This document shows, in pieces, positions 2,077 through 14,508 of a DNA stretch of 14,508 bases (position 1 is its first letter; each line of letters starts with the position of its first letter). This DNA is from Amoebophrya sp. AT5.2 (lineage: Eukaryota > Sar > Dinophyceae > Syndiniales > Amoebophryaceae). Made by a program: the position numbers and the translations under genes. The DNA lies in contig RXOD01005366.1 in the NCBI GenBank assembly GCA_005223375.1, forward strand, positions 1-14,508. The letters run 5' to 3'. The notes beneath the pieces were generated by a model. It was not told the DNA's origin. It did not search any database and saw only the letters and a program-made list of their open reading frames with translations.

Positions 2077-2469
2077 CCGCAGCAGGCCGTAGGGCGACAG
2101 CCGGGATCGTCGGGCCCCAGATCATGGAGGAGCGCAATGGAGGCAAGCAATGCGGGGCATGTGGGCATTCATCGGCGCACTCGCGCAAAGCGCAGCTGAT
2201 GAAGGTGCGCGCCGGATGCAGTGCCCAAAGCGACGGCCGCCGTGCCCATGGAGCGCCGTCCTAGAGTCCCCAGCGATGCGGACCCGAAAGCGCGATGCTC
2301 GTCCACGAGAAGTCCAAAGAACTCTCGTGGACGAGCCTCGCCTTTTCGGGTCCGAGAAGGCCGCCTGGTGATTGTCAGCCGATCCAGGGACGCGCCGCAC
2401 CGATGACCGTAACTCCCCGGGCCCATCGATCTGGGGCCCGGCGATCCTGCCCCGGCTCTCGCCCTGCGG
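2077..2469. repeat. Foldback structure with about 45-bp inverted arms
   Basis: The left arm 2077-2123 and right arm 2428-2469 are imperfect reverse complements sharing GATCTGGGGCCCG, CGATC, CGGCT and TCGCCCT blocks, with a few indels. A second hairpin (2280-2353) sits inside the loop. No protein can be supported in the enclosed sequence. Confidence 0.6.
2280..2353. repeat. Internal hairpin, imperfect arms of about 30 bp
   Basis: Bases 2280-2289 (GGACCCGAAA) pair with 2344-2353, and 2297-2309 (GCTCGTCCACGAG) pair perfectly with 2324-2336. A 14-base loop lies between the inner arms. Confidence 0.75.
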
Positions 2470-5881: not shown

Positions 5882-5996
5882 AAAAGTAATAGTACCCACC
5901 TATTGATGCTATTTCCACAAGAAGAACAAGTTGTGTAAGTATAGTGATGTTTTATTTCTTGGATCAGCTCGCTACCGCTAGCGTCGTCCCCGTACC

Positions 5997-6037
5997 GGTA
6001 GCGTCGTCCTTGTTTTCCCAACGAGGACGACGCTACC
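5997..6037. repeat. 14-bp perfect hairpin downstream of OSCP1
   Basis: GGTAGCGTCGTCCT at 5997-6010 pairs with 6024-6037 across a 13-base loop. Another copy of TAGCGTCGTCC lies just upstream at about 5979-5989, so the left arm is tandemly duplicated. It sits about 115 bp after the predicted OSCP1 stop. Confidence 0.8.
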
Positions 6038-6586
6038 AAGCCGGGGAGCGTCGAGACGCGCAGCTGCAAAAAAAGTCAAAAAAAAAGTCAAGCCATGAGC
6101 TTGTTTAAGCGCCAGCTGTCGGAGGTAGAAATAGGCGCGTGGCCATCTTCACGACCAGCTCATCCGAGTCTGATTGTGGATTTGGATTTATGTCTACGTA
6201 CCCACGTACTACTTCGAAGTCCGCAACTCCTCCGTGACATACAATGCCCTCTCCTCTTTATCATGGGGCGCGAGCCCTCGCGCGAGGTGTCCCCGATGTA
6301 CGTGTCTCCGGAGATATAAAAAAGAGCTCTCTCGGTATCGCGATCGTGCTGAAGCAAGCTGGGCGGGATCATCAGAGCGCGCTGGACGGGATACGCCAAG
6401 ACCTCGTAGTAGGAACTCGATCTACCGATCTACCCATATACTTCGATCGATAGGAATCGATAGGAACACCAGAAGATGCACTGGTGATTAGAATTCTTTC
6501 AGTATAGTAGTTCCACCGGAAGTTGTTGGGACTAGGAGCCTAGCAATGGTATCCATATTTAGCGCCGCCAAGAGCGGCCGCAGCGA

Positions 6587-7780: not shown

Positions 7781-10679
7781 ATGAACGACAGTTCGTATCG
7801 GAGCAGCGGCTCCGGGAGGGAGAACATGAACATGGAACTGAGGGTGGGGAACAAGTACCGCCTCCGCCACAAGATCGGGTCTGGCAGTTTCGGCGACATA
7901 TACCTGGGCGCGGACATCCAGACCGGCGAGGAGGTGGCCATCAAGCTCGAGTCGATCAAGTCCCGCCACCCCCAGCTGCTCTACGAATCCAAACTCTACA
8001 AAATCATGGCCGGAGGCGTCGGCATACCCAACCTGCATTGGTACTAGTAGTACTGTACCTACCTATCTATAGTAGACATATCCATCTTCGTCCGTAGATA
8101 TGTTTTGGGTTTCTACTACTACGTACTACTTCCGCGCGGTGGTGATGGTGTTCGTCCCTGCATATAAGTGCGGGGCCTCGTCGCTCGCTTACATGAAGGG
8201 CCGCTGCTCAATCACAGCGTAATCCTAAGGCAATCAATCTTGAACACAGGTACGGTGTGGAGGGTGACTACAACGTAATGGTAATCGACCTTCTGGGGCC
8301 TTCACTCGAGGACCTCTTCTCCTTCTGCGGGCGGAAATTCTCCCTCAAAACAGTGGTACTTCTATTTACTTCTTCCGAGCACTTCTTTTGGGACCAACTT
8401 GCAGTGGATGCATTGCTGGATGAAGCACCACGACAACCACTGATGCGTCGTCACTCTGACACTCTTTTCGGTTCACAGGTGATGCTTGCCGATCAGATGA
8501 TAAACAGGGTGGAGTACATGCACACGAAAAACTTCCTGCACCGCGACATCAAGCCCGACAATTTTTTGATTGGCCTCGGTATTATATTATTTCAGTCCAA
8601 ACCACTACAGGGAGGTACAGATAGTAGCTGGTTTGCGATGAAAAATTTAGTACATCATGATCATAATGTCATTAATACTATCATTGCAGATGCAGATGCA
8701 GAAGGCTTCGGCTAGTCAGTGCTAGCTCTAGCTCACTTTCCTCAACTACGGATCATTGATAGATGACCTCGGATCTAACCATCTATCATAGATCGATGGA
8801 TCTTTATTCACATTCTTTCAAATAGAAATAGCTCATAGCTATCGACTCAAGTCCAAGTTCATCGTCCACTTCGCAGGTAAGAAGGCGAACATGGTGCACA
8901 TAATCGATTTTGGCTTGGCGAAGAAGTACCGCGACCCGAAAAGCCAGCAGCACATCCCGTACCGGGAGAACAAGAACCTCACGGGCACCGCGCGCTATGC
9001 CTCAATCAACACCCACCTCGGAATCGAACAATCGCGCCGCGACGACCTCGAGGCCGTCGGCTACGTCCTCATGTACTTCAACCGGGGCAGCCTGCCATGG
9101 CAAGGTAAGACATGCTATATTTCTTTATCAATAGATATAGAACTGCTCTTTAACCGCTGCTCCAGGAACGCGTGCGTGCCGCCCCTGCCGTTAGATGGAC
9201 CAGAACATGACGATCGTAGTCCCGTTTCTAAACAGTTAGAATATAGAGCTGTTATACGTCTAATTATTTCGGCGATAAGGATAAAACAGATTGGGATCGG
9301 TGAGTTCTCTGGGCAGTAGGCAAGAAGGCGAATTACGACAGGATCGTCCTTTCTAGACGCTTCTAGCTGACCGCAGAGTCTTTTACTTTTTGCCAACCAA
9401 CGAAATTTCTTTGCCACGGTAATCGGCCGAGACGATCAGTCTCAATGAATCCGGCATGGCTGAATGGGTGAACTAACTTTCGCTGGTCCTCCGCCACCCG
9501 GAAAGTTCGTAAGCACTGGGGTCCGCTGTTGGTGACTACCCCTCCGATCATTCAAAATTGAATGATCGGAGGGGTAGTCACCAACAGCGGACCCGCAGCT
9601 CGTTCAACTCAAGCACATAGGCTCATAGCTCAAAAAAAATAGATCACCTGCCTCCTTCTGCCCATGAAGAAGAAGCTGTCGTCCTGCAGGTCATGAAGAA
9701 GACGCTTGTTCTCGGTCGCGCGCAGCCTCCTGGACCTGCAGGAGCTGCGCGCGACCGAGAACAAGCGTCCGGGGGCCGATTGAAGTAGGGCCCACCGCGG
9801 GCGCGAACGAGAAGCACGCGACAAAATGCTGGCTCTCCGGGATGGACCCGCAGGCTCCTGTCGCTCGGCGTCGCGTTCCGTCTTTGCCAACTTCTTCTTC
9901 CGTCCTCCTTTCCCATTGCGGCCCTTTCCCTTTCCCCTGGGGGACGCATGTCTCTGCACCCGTCCGGAGACAGCAGAGTCGCGTCTCAGACGCTGCATAC
10001 TTAGCAGCGTCAGAATGAAGGCTACTGCTCGTGACTACCCCTCCGATCATTCAATGTCAATGCCCCCGCAGCTCGTTCAACTCAAGCACAAGCCCATAGC
10101 TCAAAAAAATAAATAAAAAGGTCTCCGGGCAGTAGGCAAGAAGGAGAAGTACGAGAAGATCATGGAGAAAAAGATGGCGACGCCGATTGAGACGCTGTGC
10201 AAGCACTTCCCCTCGGAGTTCATCACCTACCTCGGGTACTGCCGCGGGCTGCGCTTCGAGGACAGACCCGACTACGCCTACCTACGCCGCCTCATGAAGG
10301 GTAACGACTAGATTTTTGTAGATTTTTTTAAGTAAATGCAAGGTGGTAGAAAGATCATGTTGAATTGATCAAACGTCCTCGCGCAGAAGATGCTCCATGG
10401 AAACATACAACTGTAAACTGCTCATGCTCACAATGATCAAGAAAAAATATAGATTAAAACGTAGGAACATCATCTTCTTCGCGAGTGAGACAACTAACAA
10501 CTTCAGTGAACAAAATCAAAAATGAATCTTAACCAACAGATTTGTTTTGCCGCGAGCAGATCCAGTACGACTTCATTTTCGACTGGACGGTGCTAAACTA
10601 CCGGTCGCAGCAGGCTTCCGGCCAGAACCAGCAGAGCGGTAACCCGGACAACAACAACCAAGGCGCGGGGGCACAGTGA
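7781..10679 (+). CDS. CK1: Casein kinase 1 (Ser/Thr protein kinase), six exons
   Basis: Exons 7781-8040, 8250-8355, 8479-8578, 8877-9104, 10121-10300 and 10540-10679 join in phase to 337 codons plus TGA. The protein matches the CK1 delta/epsilon-like family end to end. It shows [11 protein letters not shown] (18-28), the Gly loop GSGSFGDIY (33-41), catalytic VAIK (Lys55), [10 protein letters not shown] (101-110), HRDIKPDN (143-150), DFG (166-168), the CK1-specific [12 protein letters not shown] (191-202) and [14 protein letters not shown] (276-289). Residues 313-337 are a short Gln/Asn/Gly-rich tail, much shorter than animal CK1 delta. CK1s phosphorylate primed or acidic Ser/Thr sites in many cytoplasmic and nuclear pathways. 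The catalytic residues are intact. All introns are GT-AG. The start could instead be the internal ATGs at residue 16 or 18. CTTGCAG directly before the first ATG could be a (trans-)splice acceptor. Intron 4 is expanded by repeat insertions. Confidence 0.93.
9304..9348 (+). pseudogene. Vestigial copy of the start of CK1 exon 5 inside intron 4
   Basis: The segment CTCTGGGCAGTAGGCAAGAAGG and what follows match the first 45 bp of exon 5 (10121-10165) with a handful of changes. The reading frame is kept, with [14 protein letters not shown] against [14 protein letters not shown] in the real exon, and it is preceded by an AG. It then runs into unrelated sequence with no donor-like continuation. It marks a duplication of the intron/exon boundary caused by whatever expanded intron 4. 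Confidence 0.75.
9519..9594. repeat. Perfect 37-bp inverted repeat with a 2-base loop
   Basis: Every base of 9519-9555 pairs with 9558-9594; the loop is AA at 9556-9557. The inner part of the left arm (GTGACTACCCCTCCGATCAT, continuing to 9555) occurs once more, in single-arm form, at 10031-10054. This is the strongest foldback in the window and lies in CK1 intron 4. Confidence 0.95.
9532..10112. repeat. Duplicated flanks around the insertion in CK1 intron 4
   Basis: Two blocks occur in the same order on both sides. GTGACTACCCCTCCGATCAT is at 9532 and again at 10031. GCAGCTCGTTCAACTCAAGC plus a CATAGCTCAAAAAAA tail is at about 9592-9640 and again at about 10064-10112. The GC-rich element lies between them, so the arrangement looks like an insertion that duplicated its surroundings. 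The left side has the palindrome complete; the right side has only one arm. Confidence 0.8.
9702..10002 (+). repeat. GC-rich dispersed element, copy 2, with a terminal hairpin
   Basis: 9715-10002 is the inverse of 1347-1634. Its left end forms a strong hairpin (9702-9768). ACGCTTGTTCTCGGTCGCGC and the bases after it pair with the reverse complement ending at 9768, with one bulged base and a loop of about six bases. It sits inside CK1 intron 4 in the sense orientation. Arg/Ser-rich frames exist on both strands but are not supported as genes. Confidence 0.75.
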
Positions 10680-10780
10680 GTAGCCCATGAAGTTGAAGCT
10701 GTCGCGACCTGCTTACTTTTTTACCAAGGAATTATATGTCCACTCTAGCTACCAGCATCGAACAAGAGCATAGCCACCAT

Positions 10781-10815
10781 TTCCGATCATGAGTAGAAGA
10801 TTCGCATGATCGGAA
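10781..10815 (+). terminator. 11-bp perfect hairpin about 100 bp after the CK1 stop
   Basis: TTCCGATCATG at 10781-10791 pairs with 10805-10815 across a 13-base loop. Position suggests a possible mRNA 3'-end or termination element, but no T-tract or poly(A) signal accompanies it. The stem also resembles the CCGATCAT part of the intron 4 palindrome, so it may simply be repeat debris. Confidence 0.3.
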
Positions 10816-11050
10816 TCCTCTACTTCCGGGGACTCACTACACTCCGCTGCGCATCAGCGGTCATGATTTCGTATCCGGCTCGTCCGACTATGATGCTGAT
10901 CGCAGGAAGGAAGCGAGGCGAAAGACCTTCTCCGAGCGACGTGGGAAGCGGCGGGAGCGGCTACCAGAATACCGAAAAAACGGTTTTAAAAAAGATGTCT
11001 GCCTCTTCAACATCCGATCATCTACTACTGATCATCATCGACTGATACTA

Positions 11051-11173
11051 CTAGCGAACAATGCGAAAGCGATAGTACTTGTACTACCGAAAGCGAAACC
11101 GAAAGCGATATTACTAGCGAAAGCGAAAGGGGCTACAACTATAGCTCGAACACTTCTTCTTCTTCTTCTTCGA
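11051..11173. repeat. Degenerate GAAAGCGA repeats followed by (TCT)n
   Basis: CGAAAGCGA-like units recur at short, uneven spacing from about 11056 to 11130, followed by a CTTCTTCTTCTTCTT run near 11152-11172. One plus-strand frame reads as Ser/Glu/Thr-rich but has an upstream stop at 11029 and no ATG. Confidence 0.7.
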
Positions 11174-11440
11174 CCGAACATCCGAACTCGAACTCGAACA
11201 TTGATGAAAGCAAAACAAACCCATGTGATCTGGCGGCCGCCATATCGATCGTAGGTATCTATATGAAATGCTGAGGAGCAGCTGCATCTCCCATGCTGCC
11301 CATGAAGACGAGATGAGCTACTAGCCATTAAGAATAAACTTTGCAGCCAAGGACGCGTGCGATCGAGATCATTCGGTTCCGATGCCTCGTATGAAATGTG
11401 TATTCGTATGTACTGTGGGCTAAGTCAGTCAGTATGTAGT

Positions 11441-12154
11441 GACCGAGGACGTACCTCGGTCCATATTTTTTCTTAGTTCTACCTCTCTCTTTCACCCACG
11501 CTTAGGTTACCCACGCAGGCTGTACTCGTACGGTACTGATGGGTAGCCCAAAGCGGTCCTGGTGGGGACGCTGGGCTTGTTACGGTTGATGTACTCAGGT
11601 GTTACCTGGATACCTCTCTGCTGTTGCTTGAAAGTGATGTCGAACCGAGATCCGACTGACTTTGGATAGTAAATCACCTCGTGGTGAGCCCCTCTAGCCT
11701 GGGTAGCACGTAGCTACCCGAGCTAGCCATGTCACAGCACTCGCTGTGCCATCCTCGAGCACGTAGCCCGAGCGCAGCGGCGCGTAGCCCTGCACAGAGG
11801 TAGAGTACCTACCTCTAGTACACGTATGTAAAACCGTACCTAGGGCACGTAGCCCTATCACCTTGAAACTGCCCAGGCAAGAAGCCTCATCGTAACGGCG
11901 TGCAGCCGTCTTACCCGGCAGTGGTACGTGACCACAAGAAGAGTGGCCCTCTTCTCCGTCGAAACTAACCTCAGAGTGGCGCAAAGCTGAAGAGCTGTCG
12001 CCGTCTCAGCGCATGAGACAAGTGTTCATCACCAGGAGACGTACTCCTAAGTGAGTAAGAACAGCAACGAAAAAGCAGGCATTGCGCCTTGACTTCTGAC
12101 TAAGGGCACTTATGTGTTGCCTCAAACTGTATTTCGCGGTCTTTTTCCAAGACC
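11441..12154 (+). ncRNA. Array of stem-loops with five-base loops, mostly ACGTA
   Basis: Perfect or near-perfect hairpins follow one another. Loop ACGTA: 11441-11461 (8-bp stem), 11701-11719 (7 bp), 11754-11772 (7 bp with one mismatch), 11841-11857 (6 bp), 12034-12048 (5 bp). Loop GCGTA: 11774-11793. Loop AGTAC: 11796-11816 (8 bp). Loop GTGCA: 11895-11909. Loop ACGTG: 11921-11935. Loop TGGCC: 11937-11955 (7 bp). Loop GCGCA: 12003-12019 (6 bp). Loop TTTCC: 12138-12154 (6 bp). Others with different loops occur at 11545-11577, 11596-11608, 11674-11687 and 11733-11748. The stems are unrelated in sequence while loop length, and often loop sequence, is kept. This is what selection on a folded RNA (or ssDNA) recognised through its loop would leave. 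A pyrimidine tract (11466-11495) precedes the main run. Strand is assumed from the ORFs downstream; loop function is unknown. Confidence 0.6.
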
Positions 12155-12769
12155 CCAGCCGCAGGCTGATTTACTATGCTCACCATGGGCCTCTGAGGGA
12201 GCCCTCCGGCTGGTGCGTGGATTCGTATCCCATCCAGTTAGAGGAGAGGAGACGCAGGTGCGTTGCGCCGGAGCAGGTCGGCCTGGCTTCCCCCGTGAGT
12301 GAGGCGAAGGGCCATGAGGCTGGCGTCCTGGTGCACCAGGCGTCGGCGAGCAGGTGCAGACTCTCATGGCATTAAGGTAACCCGCACTGCAGCCTCGCCA
12401 ACTGCGGTCACGCCCCAGGTTTTTGAAAGGAAAAAGCACAATGATGGCACCAGCGTGACCTGAAACATGAACCTTTCGAGTTTTGACTTACGAAAGAATG
12501 ATAACGGCACAAAGGTTGCAAAAGCCACACAACGAGCAGTACATTGCACTAGCTCGTCTGGGCACAGGTTTGTCTGCGACTGACCATCGCGCAGTACTGG
12601 CAGTGTACAGGACAGCAGAGAAAAGAGCGAACTGAGACAACTCGAGACGAGGCTCGTTGAGAAGGAATGTGCGTAGCCGCATGTATAGCGCACCGGAACG
12701 ATTCCACGCACGAGGGAAACTATCACCTATGCACAGTCAGCCAACAGCGCTAGAAAACAGCGGGAAATT
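12155..12769 (+). promoter_or_regulatory. Folded leader between the hairpin array and the ORF run
   Basis: No supported protein. It continues to fold: CAGCC/GGCTG at 12156-12168, and an outer stem GCCATGAG (12311-12318) with CTCATGGC (12363-12370) enclosing the palindrome CCTGGTGCACCAGG (12327-12340). ACGAG/CTCGT lies at 12532-12557, and a TGCG-TAGC-CGCA hairpin near 12670. It directly precedes the first small ORF, so a 5' leader or internal ribosome entry region is plausible. I saw no tRNA or rRNA landmarks. Confidence 0.35.
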
Positions 12770-13111
12770 ATGGTCAGCGAAAGTGATAACTCATGGAATG
12801 AATCGTTAATCGACGAAGATGAGTCTCCCTCGGATGAAGATGACTTCGACCCGAGCCCCAGACAGCTGATGCGCATAGTACCGGGCGCATACTACATTCA
12901 AGACGAAATCTGGCCGGTAGTGGATCTTCCGATCCGAGTATCAGTCCCGCTGCGTGGCAGCGTGATACGAGCACGAGTCCTGATACAGGTCCCTGCGGCG
13001 CTTACAAACCACTATGGATCTATAATTGACAATTACCCAGCAGAATTTCGCGAAACCTTTCTCACCCAAGCATCAAACCTGGTATTGACGAGGATGATAG
13101 GTGGAGGATGA
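12770..13111 (+). CDS. Small-protein array member A (113 aa, acidic head)
   Basis: Unrecognised family. It starts at the first ATG after the structured leader. Residues 1-30 are highly acidic (ESLIDEDESPSDEDD), followed by VPGAYY, then an alternating hydrophobic pair of strands (IRVSVP ... RARVLIQVPA), then HYGSIIDNYP and a predicted helix ending QASNLVL. The same order of motifs is found in the next ORF and in the last, partial one, so I treat it as a paralogue family. There is no signal peptide or membrane segment. No Shine-Dalgarno-like sequence precedes the ATG. The following ORF begins 27 bp after the stop. The function is unknown; the size and the beta-hairpin plus helix pattern would fit a small structural or nucleic-acid-binding protein, but that is guesswork. 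Confidence 0.7.
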   Translation: MVSESDNSWNESLIDEDESPSDEDDFDPSPRQLMRIVPGAYYIQDEIWPVVDLPIRVSVPLRGSVIRARVLIQVPAALTNHYGSIIDNYPAEFRETFLTQASNLVLTRMIGGG

Positions 13112-13138
13112 TAGCAGCAGGATGCTCCCCTAGTAAGC

Positions 13139-13480
13139 ATGACTGCTACTTTCGATACTTTTGAAAGCGACGAAGAATGGCCATATCCTGAGTCGTGTTA
13201 CCGCGACGGCGTTAAGCTCACTGAGCTGCCCGGAGTCTTCTACCAGCCCGGAATATACCAACCTCAGAAACCAGGAGTCCTCACGCCCCTAATCAACATC
13301 CGAGTCCCGGTGCTCACGACAGCCGGAGGCACAGCCAAAACAGTTTTCGTACAAGTAAGAACTTTTGCATCGCTAGTAGCGGTCTTCGGCCCTAAATTTG
13401 AAGACCTGCCATTGCGTGACCAAGCAGAGTTACGAGACAGAGCACGACGTATCTATGCAGCACGGAAAGTAGGAGCGTAA
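13139..13480 (+). CDS. Small-protein array member B (113 aa)
   Basis: Unrecognised, and exactly the same length as member A. The head is acidic (FESDEEWPYP), then LPGVFY, then strands INIRVPVL ... TVFVQVRT, then VFGPKFEDLP and a charged helix (RDQAELRDRARRIYAAR). Aligned with A, the [VL]PGx[FY]Y, IRV, V[LF][IV]QV and G-x6-P positions agree without gaps inside the motifs, while overall identity is low. This supports an old duplication. Member C starts 11 bp after the stop, so independent promoters are unlikely and co-transcription is inferred. Confidence 0.72.
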   Translation: MTATFDTFESDEEWPYPESCYRDGVKLTELPGVFYQPGIYQPQKPGVLTPLINIRVPVLTTAGGTAKTVFVQVRTFASLVAVFGPKFEDLPLRDQAELRDRARRIYAARKVGA

Positions 13481-13491
13481 AGTGCCTTTAG

Positions 13492-13725
13492 ATGACGAAC
13501 CACAAACCACCTCCTGTGCCACTACGTTTCCGGATAAAAGGCACCTCATCAGGACGGAGATACTCGTGCATAGTAGAAATAGAAGTGGAGGCAAAAATCA
13601 CACGACGTTGCGGCACTGTCGTTGAGAGTTGGCCAACGTCGCTACGCTTATCTGTTATGAGAGTTGTACTGCAGAGGACCAAGCACATACTGGAGATCCC
13701 TGTCCCTGCTAAAAGATCCAGATAA
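13492..13725 (+). CDS. Small-protein array member C (77 aa, basic, short form)
   Basis: Unrecognised. It lacks the acidic head and PGxFY motif but keeps the core: strand RFRIKG, strand CIVEIEVEAKI, then RCGTVVESWP and a hydrophobic helix-like segment (LRLSVMRVVLQ). The Arg/Lys-rich ends make it strongly basic, unlike A and B. The ATG follows TTTAG directly. A 65-bp C/A-rich, G-poor spacer separates its stop from member D. Assignment to the family rests on the G-x6-P motif and strand pattern alone. Confidence 0.62.
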   Translation: MTNHKPPPVPLRFRIKGTSSGRRYSCIVEIEVEAKITRRCGTVVESWPTSLRLSVMRVVLQRTKHILEIPVPAKRSR

Positions 13726-13790
13726 ATCCGATACAAACCACAAACTCACACCCAACAAACCTGCCCCATCAAACCTAAATAGCCAACCAG
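13726..13790 (+). promoter_or_regulatory. C/A-rich, G-poor spacer between members C and D
   Basis: Only four G in 65 bases, dominated by ACAAACC-type strings, so this stretch should be unstructured as RNA. It is the longest gap in the ORF run and lies just upstream of the only non-paralogous member. It could act as an unstructured initiation leader. Confidence 0.3.
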
Positions 13791-14045
13791 ATGAGCACCA
13801 AACAAAGCCAGAAAAGTATGCCCTTTGGCACATGCCATGCACCGCGTCAATTTATGTGCGCACTCCATGCTTTAGAGAAGATAGGACAGGATGCCTGCAC
13901 ATGCCCAGCCTCCAGGAAGTGCGACACTGCCTTACGGAAACGCACCCAGGAATTTCTCGAGAAGCACAAAGCAGAACAAGAAACCACTGCAGCTAAGAAG
14001 ACCGTCACTTACGTAGATGATGTAGCTGAGGTATGGAAGAAGTAA
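13791..14045 (+). CDS. Small-protein array member D (84 aa, Cys-rich N-half, Lys-rich helix)
   Basis: Unrecognised and not a paralogue of the others. The first half carries five Cys and two His (GTCHAP, MCALHAL, ACTCPASRKC), which could bind a metal or form disulfides. The second half is a charged, helix-prone stretch (TQEFLEKHKAEQE) ending in VDDVAEVWKK. The ATG follows ACCAG directly. The last 13 bases overlap the start of member E in another frame. A longer frame (13664-13996) overlaps it but lacks family motifs and runs through member C, so I prefer this one. Confidence 0.6.
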   Translation: MSTKQSQKSMPFGTCHAPRQFMCALHALEKIGQDACTCPASRKCDTALRKRTQEFLEKHKAEQETTAAKKTVTYVDDVAEVWKK

Positions 14046-14233
14046 AAGTACCTGTAGTCGTGAGCACGGGCATCGCCCACGCCTATACTCGAATACCTCT
14101 GCACCTAGCTAGAGTCTTCGGAACAGACTATCATCGCCTACCAAAACAGCTACAAGAAATACTACAGAAGAAGGCGGAACCGATCGTGCAACTACCATCG
14201 CCCACCAGGAAAAGGATAGCAGAAAGCTCCTAA
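14033..14233 (+). CDS. Small-protein array member E (66 aa, short form)
   Basis: Unrecognised. It starts inside the end of member D (ATGGAAGAAGTAA carries both the start and the D stop), an arrangement suited to termination-reinitiation. It keeps the family core without the acidic head: strand VKVPVVV, strand RIPLHLA, VFGTDYHRLP, then a helix (KQLQEILQKKAEPIV) and a basic tail. The G-x6-P block matches member B most closely (VFG....xLP). Its stop is 50 bp before the last ATG in the window. Confidence 0.65.
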   Translation: MEEVKVPVVVSTGIAHAYTRIPLHLARVFGTDYHRLPKQLQEILQKKAEPIVQLPSPTRKRIAESS

Positions 14234-14283
14234 ATCAAGATCATCACAAATACGGTCCATGAAGCTCAACTTGTCGCACAAAG

Positions 14284-14508
14284 ATGGCAGCTGGCATAGG
14301 CGGCGGTATGTGGGACGGCCTTTTTAGCGATAGCGAGGACGAACTGAACCCCTATCCAACAGGTGACAACGTACCTGGGAGATTCTACAACCGCAGACTC
14401 GGGATCCTAGCTAAGTGCTTCTTCGCAATAGAAGTTGAAATTGAAGACAGGAAACGAGGCACAACGACAGTCCGAACCAGAATAATAATTAGAGCTTGTC
14501 CATTAATG
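14284..14508 (+). CDS. Small-protein array member F (3' end beyond the window)
   Basis: Seventy-five codons open from the ATG at 14284 to the last base. It repeats the long-form layout: Gly-rich start, acidic FSDSEDELNPYP (compare FESDEEWPYP in B), VPGRFY, then IEVEIED and VRTRIIIRA as the two strands. The G-x6-P helix would lie beyond the edge. It shows the array is not finished here. The ATG follows CAAAG directly. Function unknown. Confidence 0.68.
   Translation, partial: MAAGIGGGMWDGLFSDSEDELNPYPTGDNVPGRFYNRRLGILAKCFFAIEVEIEDRKRGTTTVRTRIIIRACPLM

Follow-up and report, generated by a model that had tools for sequence, protein, structure and literature searches.

Sequence features of the locus

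The DNA analysed here (the window, 14,508 nucleotides) is an entire contig, C1570, of the 50.7-Mb assembly of 2759 contigs in which the searches of the own genome were carried out. To the left of the region of interest it contains an exon of OSCP1 (PF10188, E 3.9e-35) and, as judged by eye, exons of a casein-kinase-like gene, for which the kinase matches were weak. Sequence comparison indicates that from position 11327 onward the window is the left end of a large retroelement, made up of a terminal repeat, a leader and small orphan ORFs, all on the forward strand. The terminal repeat, A1 (11327–11475; element start at about 11327), is identical over 149 bp to positions 11872–12020 of contig C451. 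The leader reaches from the element start to the first ORF (11327–12769, ~1.4 kb) and contains 23 ATG triplets. It includes a noncoding stretch (12183–12424) with 82% identity to the copy in contig C135, and looks strongly constrained; the reverse transcriptase (RT) proteins of C451 and C135 are at 49%.

The leader is followed immediately by ORF1 (12770–13111, 113 aa), a member of an orphan family, so that the hairpin array described below indeed lies just upstream of orphan ORFs, as the first-pass annotation had stated. Next come a diverged ORF1 paralogue of 113 aa (13139–13480; profile E 4.4e-7), a small ORF weakly similar to an ORF of contig C1082 (13492–13725; E 7e-6), an 84-aa ORF with no relative in the compared copies and family matches at chance level (13791–14045), a weak ORF1-family member (14033–14233; profile E 1.8e-4) and a further family member cut by the contig end (14284–14508; profile E 2e-7). 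A word-based search of 5.8 billion proteins found no relative of ORF1 at E ≤ 0.1, and none was found in IMG/VR. Its predicted fold (pLDDT 80, pTM 0.61, a fair model) yielded no significant fold in the PDB. Searches of the small ORFs against Pfam and PHROGs gave chance-level matches (E 0.068 or worse), and the C1082 relative of ORF1 matched LPD28 below the cut-off (E 0.0047). A phage or virus origin was ruled out on the basis of these chance-level Pfam and PHROGs matches and the lack of an ORF1 relative in IMG/VR.

Identity of the retroelement

Related copies were found in the own genome on contigs C675, C135, C1082, C1823 and C451. In C451, the sequence corresponding to A1 sits between two identical 258-bp direct repeats, in the arrangement B1-A2-B2, downstream of an RT gene and other element ORFs. 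Contig C135 carries both element ends, arranged as A1..B1-A2-B2 over ~13.6 kb in total (A repeats, 141 bp, 100% identical; B repeats, 222 bp, 99.1% identical); the same search revealed no split direct repeats in C675 or in the piece of C1082. The window end does not overlap the first 3000 bases of C451, which may be either the other end of the window's insertion or a sibling element.

The relatives encode a protein of ~750–800 aa with a reverse transcriptase domain (RVT_1: E 5.8e-8 in C675, above the cut-off; 29.4 bits in C451, just under the cut-off of 29.6); the window contig ends before this gene, which is thus known from the relatives. The genome contains at least 66 RT matches, with 56 of the 102 candidates scored. 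Outside this genome, five matches, all from EukProt, were found among the 7994 candidates scored, and the RT profile had no match among PDB sequences at E 0.01. For RNase H, the RT ORF was assessed by eye. The relatives further encode a protein rich in Lys and Gly, whose CCCH match is weak and below the cut-off, and a macro-like ORF with eight genome matches including itself. The likeness of the latter to the macro domain is at the level of motifs: its best fittingly named match has an E of 0.71, and the copies scanned gave no Pfam or NCBIfam match. H-Q-x-N-C is invariant between this protein (piece L018, 4610–5170) and seven relatives. Finally, the motifs T/S-G-L-R-P, P-R-R and G-W...Y, which we take to be those of tyrosine recombinases, suggest that the element carries a putative tyrosine recombinase; this protein had no Pfam or NCBIfam match, an hhalign probability of 0.6% and a low-confidence structure model with no significant fold match. 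Pfam gives 28 tyrosine-recombinase matches in other parts of the genome, 20 of them above the cut-off; none coincides with a copy studied here, and other elements that carry a recombinase may therefore be present alongside.

According to PMC5890265, DIRS-like elements of Symbiodinium have repeats in the order A-coding-B-A-B; split direct repeats, a divergent RT and a dinoflagellate host are shared with the element described here. It differs from them in its length (~13.6 kb in C135), orphan ORFs, macro-like ORF and structured leader, and in that its recombinase is recognised at motif level; also in comparison with the DIRS-like elements, no methyltransferase was found among the element ORFs scanned. 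A 21-mer that we take to be the dinoflagellate spliced leader occurs in the genome 18 times exactly and 15 times with one mismatch, as opposed to zero matches for the reversed pattern, from which we conclude that a dinoflagellate, or a close relative of one, is the most likely host.

The hairpin array in the window

Scanning of positions 11441–12154 for perfect hairpins revealed 11 Watson-Crick hairpins with a five-base loop and a stem of at least 5 bp; 500 dinucleotide shuffles gave 0.74 on average and never more than 5. For stems of at least 6 bp, the count was 7 against a shuffle mean of 0.23 and a maximum of 3 (500 dinucleotide shuffles). Ten of the 11 hairpins are separate, the remaining one (11711–11725) overlapping the hairpin at 11701. 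Twelve hairpins had been reported before; ten stand as separate and perfect, and the total is reached with two imperfect ones at 11761 and 11782.

The loop ACGTA occurs five times, as claimed, four times on perfect stems of 5–8 bp. The first of these hairpins, GACCGAGG-ACGTA-CCTCGGTC (11441–11461), lies within A1, and the same placement and loop are found in C675 and C1082 on different stems. The other perfect ones are GGGTAGC-ACGTA-GCTACCC (11701–11719), TAGGGC-ACGTA-GCCCTA (11841–11857) and AGGAG-ACGTA-CTCCT (12034–12048). The fifth, CTCGAGC-ACGTA-GCCCGAG (11754–11772, loop at 11761), contains one A.C mismatch. Loops that resemble ACGTA, as the first-pass annotation had also noted, are GCGTA (11774–11793; by eye, 3 bp, one bulged base and 4 bp), GTGCA in ACGGC-GTGCA-GCCGT (11895–11909), ACGTG in GTGGT-ACGTG-ACCAC (11921–11935) and GCGCA in GTCTCA-GCGCA-TGAGAC (12003–12019). 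Three further loops are unlike it, namely those of AGAGGTAG-AGTAC-CTACCTCT (11796–11816), AGAAGAG-TGGCC-CTCTTCT (11937–11955) and GGTCTT-TTTCC-AAGACC (12138–12154).

Over 860 bases of the window, ACGTA is displayed four times on stems of at least 5 bp, and none of 2000 shuffles reached one word four times; the number of hairpins at this stem length was likewise reached by 0 of 2000. Seven-base loops are also in excess within 11441–12154 (8 with stems of at least 5 bp, 0.73 expected), a count that includes again each of the seven five-base loops on stems of at least 6 bp, with the closing pair opened. The same region folds more stably than its shuffles on both strands (z −5.3 for the plus and −6.6 for the minus strand, 20 shuffles each), unlike the neighbouring stretch 10600–11313 (z +0.6, 20 shuffles). 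Short hairpins are common in any sequence, and the array might in principle reflect chance or base composition. We assign next to no probability to this reading, which for the structure is already refuted by the shuffles, by the sharing of loops, by covariation and by the controls in other sequence given below.

The core hairpin and the leader family

Between the first and second ACGTA hairpins of the window lies a further hairpin with the stem TCACC/GGTGA, flanked by AAATC and GAGCCC (11671–11691), which is termed the core. The ACGTA loop of the hairpin at 11701–11719 lies 37 bases past the core start, and its counterparts in C675 and C1082 lie at +37 and +35. The pattern AAATCACCNNNNNGTGAGCCC has five exact genome matches (C675, C935, C1082, C1570 and C1823); allowing up to two mismatches raised this to 21, with 10 for the pattern in reverse, and most of the looser matches are accordingly attributed to chance. 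A core pattern with a free stem gave 19 matches versus 2 for the reversed pattern. Fifteen of the 19 have a stem of at least four pairs; the other four (C128, C582, C1688, C2539), which form at most three pairs by eye, were left unfetched. Together with the window, C675, C1082, C737 and C135, the cores of the last two being placed by eye, the 15 leaders found by pattern make up a set of 20.

The core hairpin is common to all 20 leaders. The search pattern dictates pairs 1 and 2 in most of them; at pairs 3 and 4, all 20 have standard pairing, of three and five types, respectively (pair 3: AT 8, GC 8, GT 4; pair 4: CG 12, GC 3, TG 3, TA 1, GT 1). In nine of the 15 pattern-found leaders (C13, C45, C96, C336, C347, C363, C835, C1823 and C1878), the core is followed ~8–10 kb downstream by an RT match on the same contig and strand, and in C675 this distance is 9.1 kb. 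The other six have no RT match on their contig among the matches listed (56 of 102 candidates scored). No recognisable leader was seen in 5-kb stretches of C253 and C801, and the leader of C24 was sought and not located. Nine places in IMG/VR match the core pattern; we take them to be chance matches because, by eye, none extends the two pattern-fixed pairs to four. A short leader-like fragment with a core is found on C935 (L042, about 1200–1640), where by eye it lies between two partly duplicated pieces of an apparent EF-hand-like host gene.

Loop words differ between lineages

The window, C675 and C1082 (group A) share ACGTA-capped hairpins on unrelated stems around the core. Within −360 to +500 of the core, the three leaders contain 20 ACGTA words, of which 12 are closed by at least four contiguous Watson-Crick pairs and 17 lie on stems with at least four such pairs when single interruptions are allowed. 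Closure by at least four pairs was found for 0 of 31 ACGTA words in 75.6 kb of other fetched sequence and for 0 of 8 in the other leaders. At the six positions adjacent to the loop, 90 of 120 cells are paired in group A; when the 3′ arms were redealt 2000 times, the mean was 47.1 and the maximum 63. The 5′ arms are 32% identical at positions 2–6. The earlier observation of a conserved loop on unrelated stems is therefore borne out. In C675, the commonest loop word occurs five times at stems of at least 4 and twice at stems of at least 5 bp, a count that none of 2000 shuffles reached in either case; in C1082 it occurs three times at stems of at least 4 (0 of 2000), with no excess at stems of at least 5 (925 of 2000). 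At this latter stem length, 300 and 265 of 2000 shuffles have as many hairpins as C675 and C1082, respectively; what is exceptional in these two leaders is thus the sharing of the loop alone.

A second group of five leaders (C13, C835, C347, C201 and C2646; the GAGTM group, or group B) has hairpins at about +80, +116 and +153 with the loops GAGTC or GAGTA, once GGGTT. These hairpins have the same two closing pairs, C-G and G-C, and the stems beyond them covary: over 23 pairs, with the structure counted being read off the alignment that was tested, 95.7% of cells are paired and 10 pairs are double-changed (0 of 500 shuffles), the number of pair types being reached by 46 of 500. Sliding of the partners gave at most 56.5% paired cells. 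Covariation, which had been proposed from hairpins within the window, thus also exists between homologous copies, in group A, in the GAGTM group and in the core. Because the GAGTM stems are interrupted after three pairs, closure by at least three contiguous pairs (GAGTC 8 of 18, GAGTA 3 of 6) is more frequent than closure by at least four (2 of 18 and 2 of 6). Three-pair closure of these words was found in 0 of 24 cases in other leaders, and four-pair closure for GAGTC in 1 of 64 and for GAGTA in 0 of 46 cases in the 75.6 kb of other sequence. Four of the five copies have an internal loop of the UGA/GAY type in the second GAGTM hairpin, the exception being C2646 with AA/GA (columns 93–95 with 107–109 of alignment A3). 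Directly past the hairpins, the GAGTM leaders contain runs of ATCATTACC/ATCATTGCC-like repeats (L064, L057, L060 and L055), which are mostly unpaired in folds.

On the reverse strand of C737 (L054, 606–690), three consecutive hairpins with unrelated stems are capped by CCTA, 3 of 7 CCTA words in this leader lying on stems of at least 4; read post hoc, CCTA may be a third loop word. The other 11 leaders have no loop word more than twice on perfect stems of at least 4 with loops of 4–6 bases. C2502 has CTCG and TAGA twice each; C347, of the GAGTM group, additionally has TTCG twice. Pooling of the 12 leaders outside groups A and B gave CGCTG, CCTCC and TTAGC three times each. A single loop word for all leaders is ruled out, 11 of 20 having no word more than twice, and such an array is therefore not required by all members.

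Two of the alternatives that we considered bear directly on these words. The first-pass annotation had raised kissing of the self-complementary ACGT loops, by which the repeated hairpins would dimerise or compact the RNA. ACGTA is indeed self-complementary and repeated in the group of the window; GAGTC and GAGTA, which occupy the corresponding place in the sister group, are not, which disfavours self-kissing as a general principle and leaves this reading improbable. Alternatively, a host RNA-binding protein might read the loops to localise or stabilise the RNA or to let it escape silencing. Proteins that read loops generally leave the stem variable and the loop fixed, as seen here, and by eye ACGTA and GAGTC/GAGTA agree in their third and fourth bases, G and T. 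A single host protein common to all elements, however, gives no reason to expect two words in one genome, and we consider a host reader unlikely.

Strand preference of the stems

In the clean stems of the two loop words and the core, G.U pairs outnumber A.C oppositions by 17 to 2 (6:1 in group A, 5:1 in group B and 6:0 in the core), an asymmetry of 19 cells, some of them inherited, in related and hence non-independent stems. The window's own clean stems contain no G.U and one A.C. A looser set of variant-loop hairpins from group A, mostly with broken stems, has one G.U and four A.C and was left out of the count. The asymmetry favours selection on RNA of the sense strand, and we read the sequences as pointing to such selection. 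It also argues, on few cells, against an array that works as DNA, raised earlier as an ssDNA recognition array; its hairpins would be extruded in single strands and serve a recombinase of the element or its copying. A DNA role would suit the position of the first hairpin within terminal repeat A and the good folding of both strands, whereas the remaining hairpins of the window lie outside A1; overall, we regard it as very improbable.

A putative recognition signal for an element-encoded protein

The explanation that we favour, and to which we give about an even chance, is that the array is a multi-site RNA recognition signal, probably for packaging, read by an element-encoded protein, with a word that changes between lineages. 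The leader that contains the array would be part of the full-length RNA of a large split-direct-repeat retroelement, each hairpin displaying one five-base loop on a stem whose sequence is irrelevant. An RNA-binding protein of the element, most likely capsid- or nucleocapsid-like, would read several loops in a row, and this multiple binding would select the full-length RNA for assembly and reverse transcription. Trans-spliced mRNAs are usual in dinoflagellates; if the ORF mRNAs are trans-spliced, the leader would stay on the genomic RNA alone, which is where a packaging signal is needed. From the sequences we infer transcription, trans-splicing, binding and packaging. The repeated word, the free stems and the position before the first gene fit a loop-reading protein that binds at multiple sites, and the difference in word among lineages is better accounted for by a reader that the element encodes and that evolves with it than by a host factor common to all. 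The Lys/Gly-rich protein of the element, with its weak CCCH match below the cut-off, also counts in favour of this explanation.

By comparison, hairpins that regulate translation or processing of the leader, through IRES-like entry, ribosome shunting or control of trans-splicing, by a host or element protein, would account for the long leader with its 23 ATG triplets ahead of ORF1 and for the conserved stretch downstream of the array (12183–12424). They would leave the repetition of the word and its switch between lineages unexplained, and trans-splicing would presumably remove the leader; we judge such regulation rather unlikely. Returning to the packaging signal, the repeated loop could further serve as an identity code, in which each lineage shows its own word many times in its leader, ACGTA, GAGTC/GAGTA or perhaps, in C737, CCTA, and the protein of that lineage reads this word only. 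An element would thereby copy its own RNA and spare that of its neighbours among dozens of co-resident copies. We put this forward tentatively, as a possibility with clearly less than an even chance; if true, the arrays would be a natural record of the evolution of an RNA–protein recognition code.

The ORFs just downstream of the array, suggested by the first-pass annotation as binders, are on positional grounds candidates for the loop-reading protein. The ORF1 family is present in the window, C675, C1082 and C1823, the last of which has no ACGTA array; it was not found in 5-kb stretches of C13 and C347, the two of five GAGTM-group members examined. Among the copies examined, none of the downstream protein families tracks the loop word.

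Relation to known systems

Recognition signals of multiple hairpins are already known as a kind, and sets of stem-loops of this sort are known to serve in packaging or assembly (PMC3662417, PMC8233893). The packaging signals of STNV and MS2 are dispersed stem-loops with a short conserved loop motif (A.X.X.A in STNV), as described in PMC3662417, and resemble the array in having several hairpins and a short shared loop motif. The array shows this feature of multi-site packaging signals, several stem-loops with a common motif and free stems; it differs in being a ~700-base cluster in a retroelement leader with a fixed pentaloop word and a proposed packaging role. Similarly, the alphavirus packaging signal in nsP1, according to PMC8233893, is a cluster of 4–6 stem-loops that share the short conserved motif GGG and by which the genomic RNA is selected. 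That signal lies in the coding region of a virus, whereas the array lies in a noncoding leader and has another motif and a putative function. In retroviral leaders, the packaging and dimerisation hairpins are few, with no single loop word repeated many times. The array shares with them its position, after the 5′ repeat and ahead of the first gene in a reverse-transcribing element; it differs in repeating one word many times, and self-kissing does not suit the GAGTC group. What appears to be new is the array of loop words, with words specific to lineages, in the leader of a split-repeat retroelement: our searches of the open-licence PMC literature gave no report of a packaging signal or of a leader array for DIRS-type elements, nor of such a loop array in dinoflagellates. 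To our knowledge, little is known of how retroelements other than retroviruses and LTR elements select their own RNA. The natural variants, with free stems and lineage-differing words in one genome, make both a loop-reading protein and a change of its code testable with short synthetic hairpins.

Other features of the window

No Rfam match was found in 11000–14508 at E up to 1, and the 11 matches elsewhere in the window (2287–2347, 5989–6046 and 9516–9780) are all below the gathering score, so a known Rfam RNA family was ruled out for the array. By eye, the 15 bases at positions 707–721 of the minus strand match the terminal part of the dinoflagellate spliced leader; they may be a remnant of a cDNA that was inserted back into the genome. 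Near-perfect palindromes are located at 9518–9595 and 9700–9770. These are possibly introner-like elements, which have been described for Amoebophrya (PMC7789003). As seen from matching ORF translations, about 1320–1660 and 9700–10000 represent inverted copies, ~8 kb apart, of one repeat.
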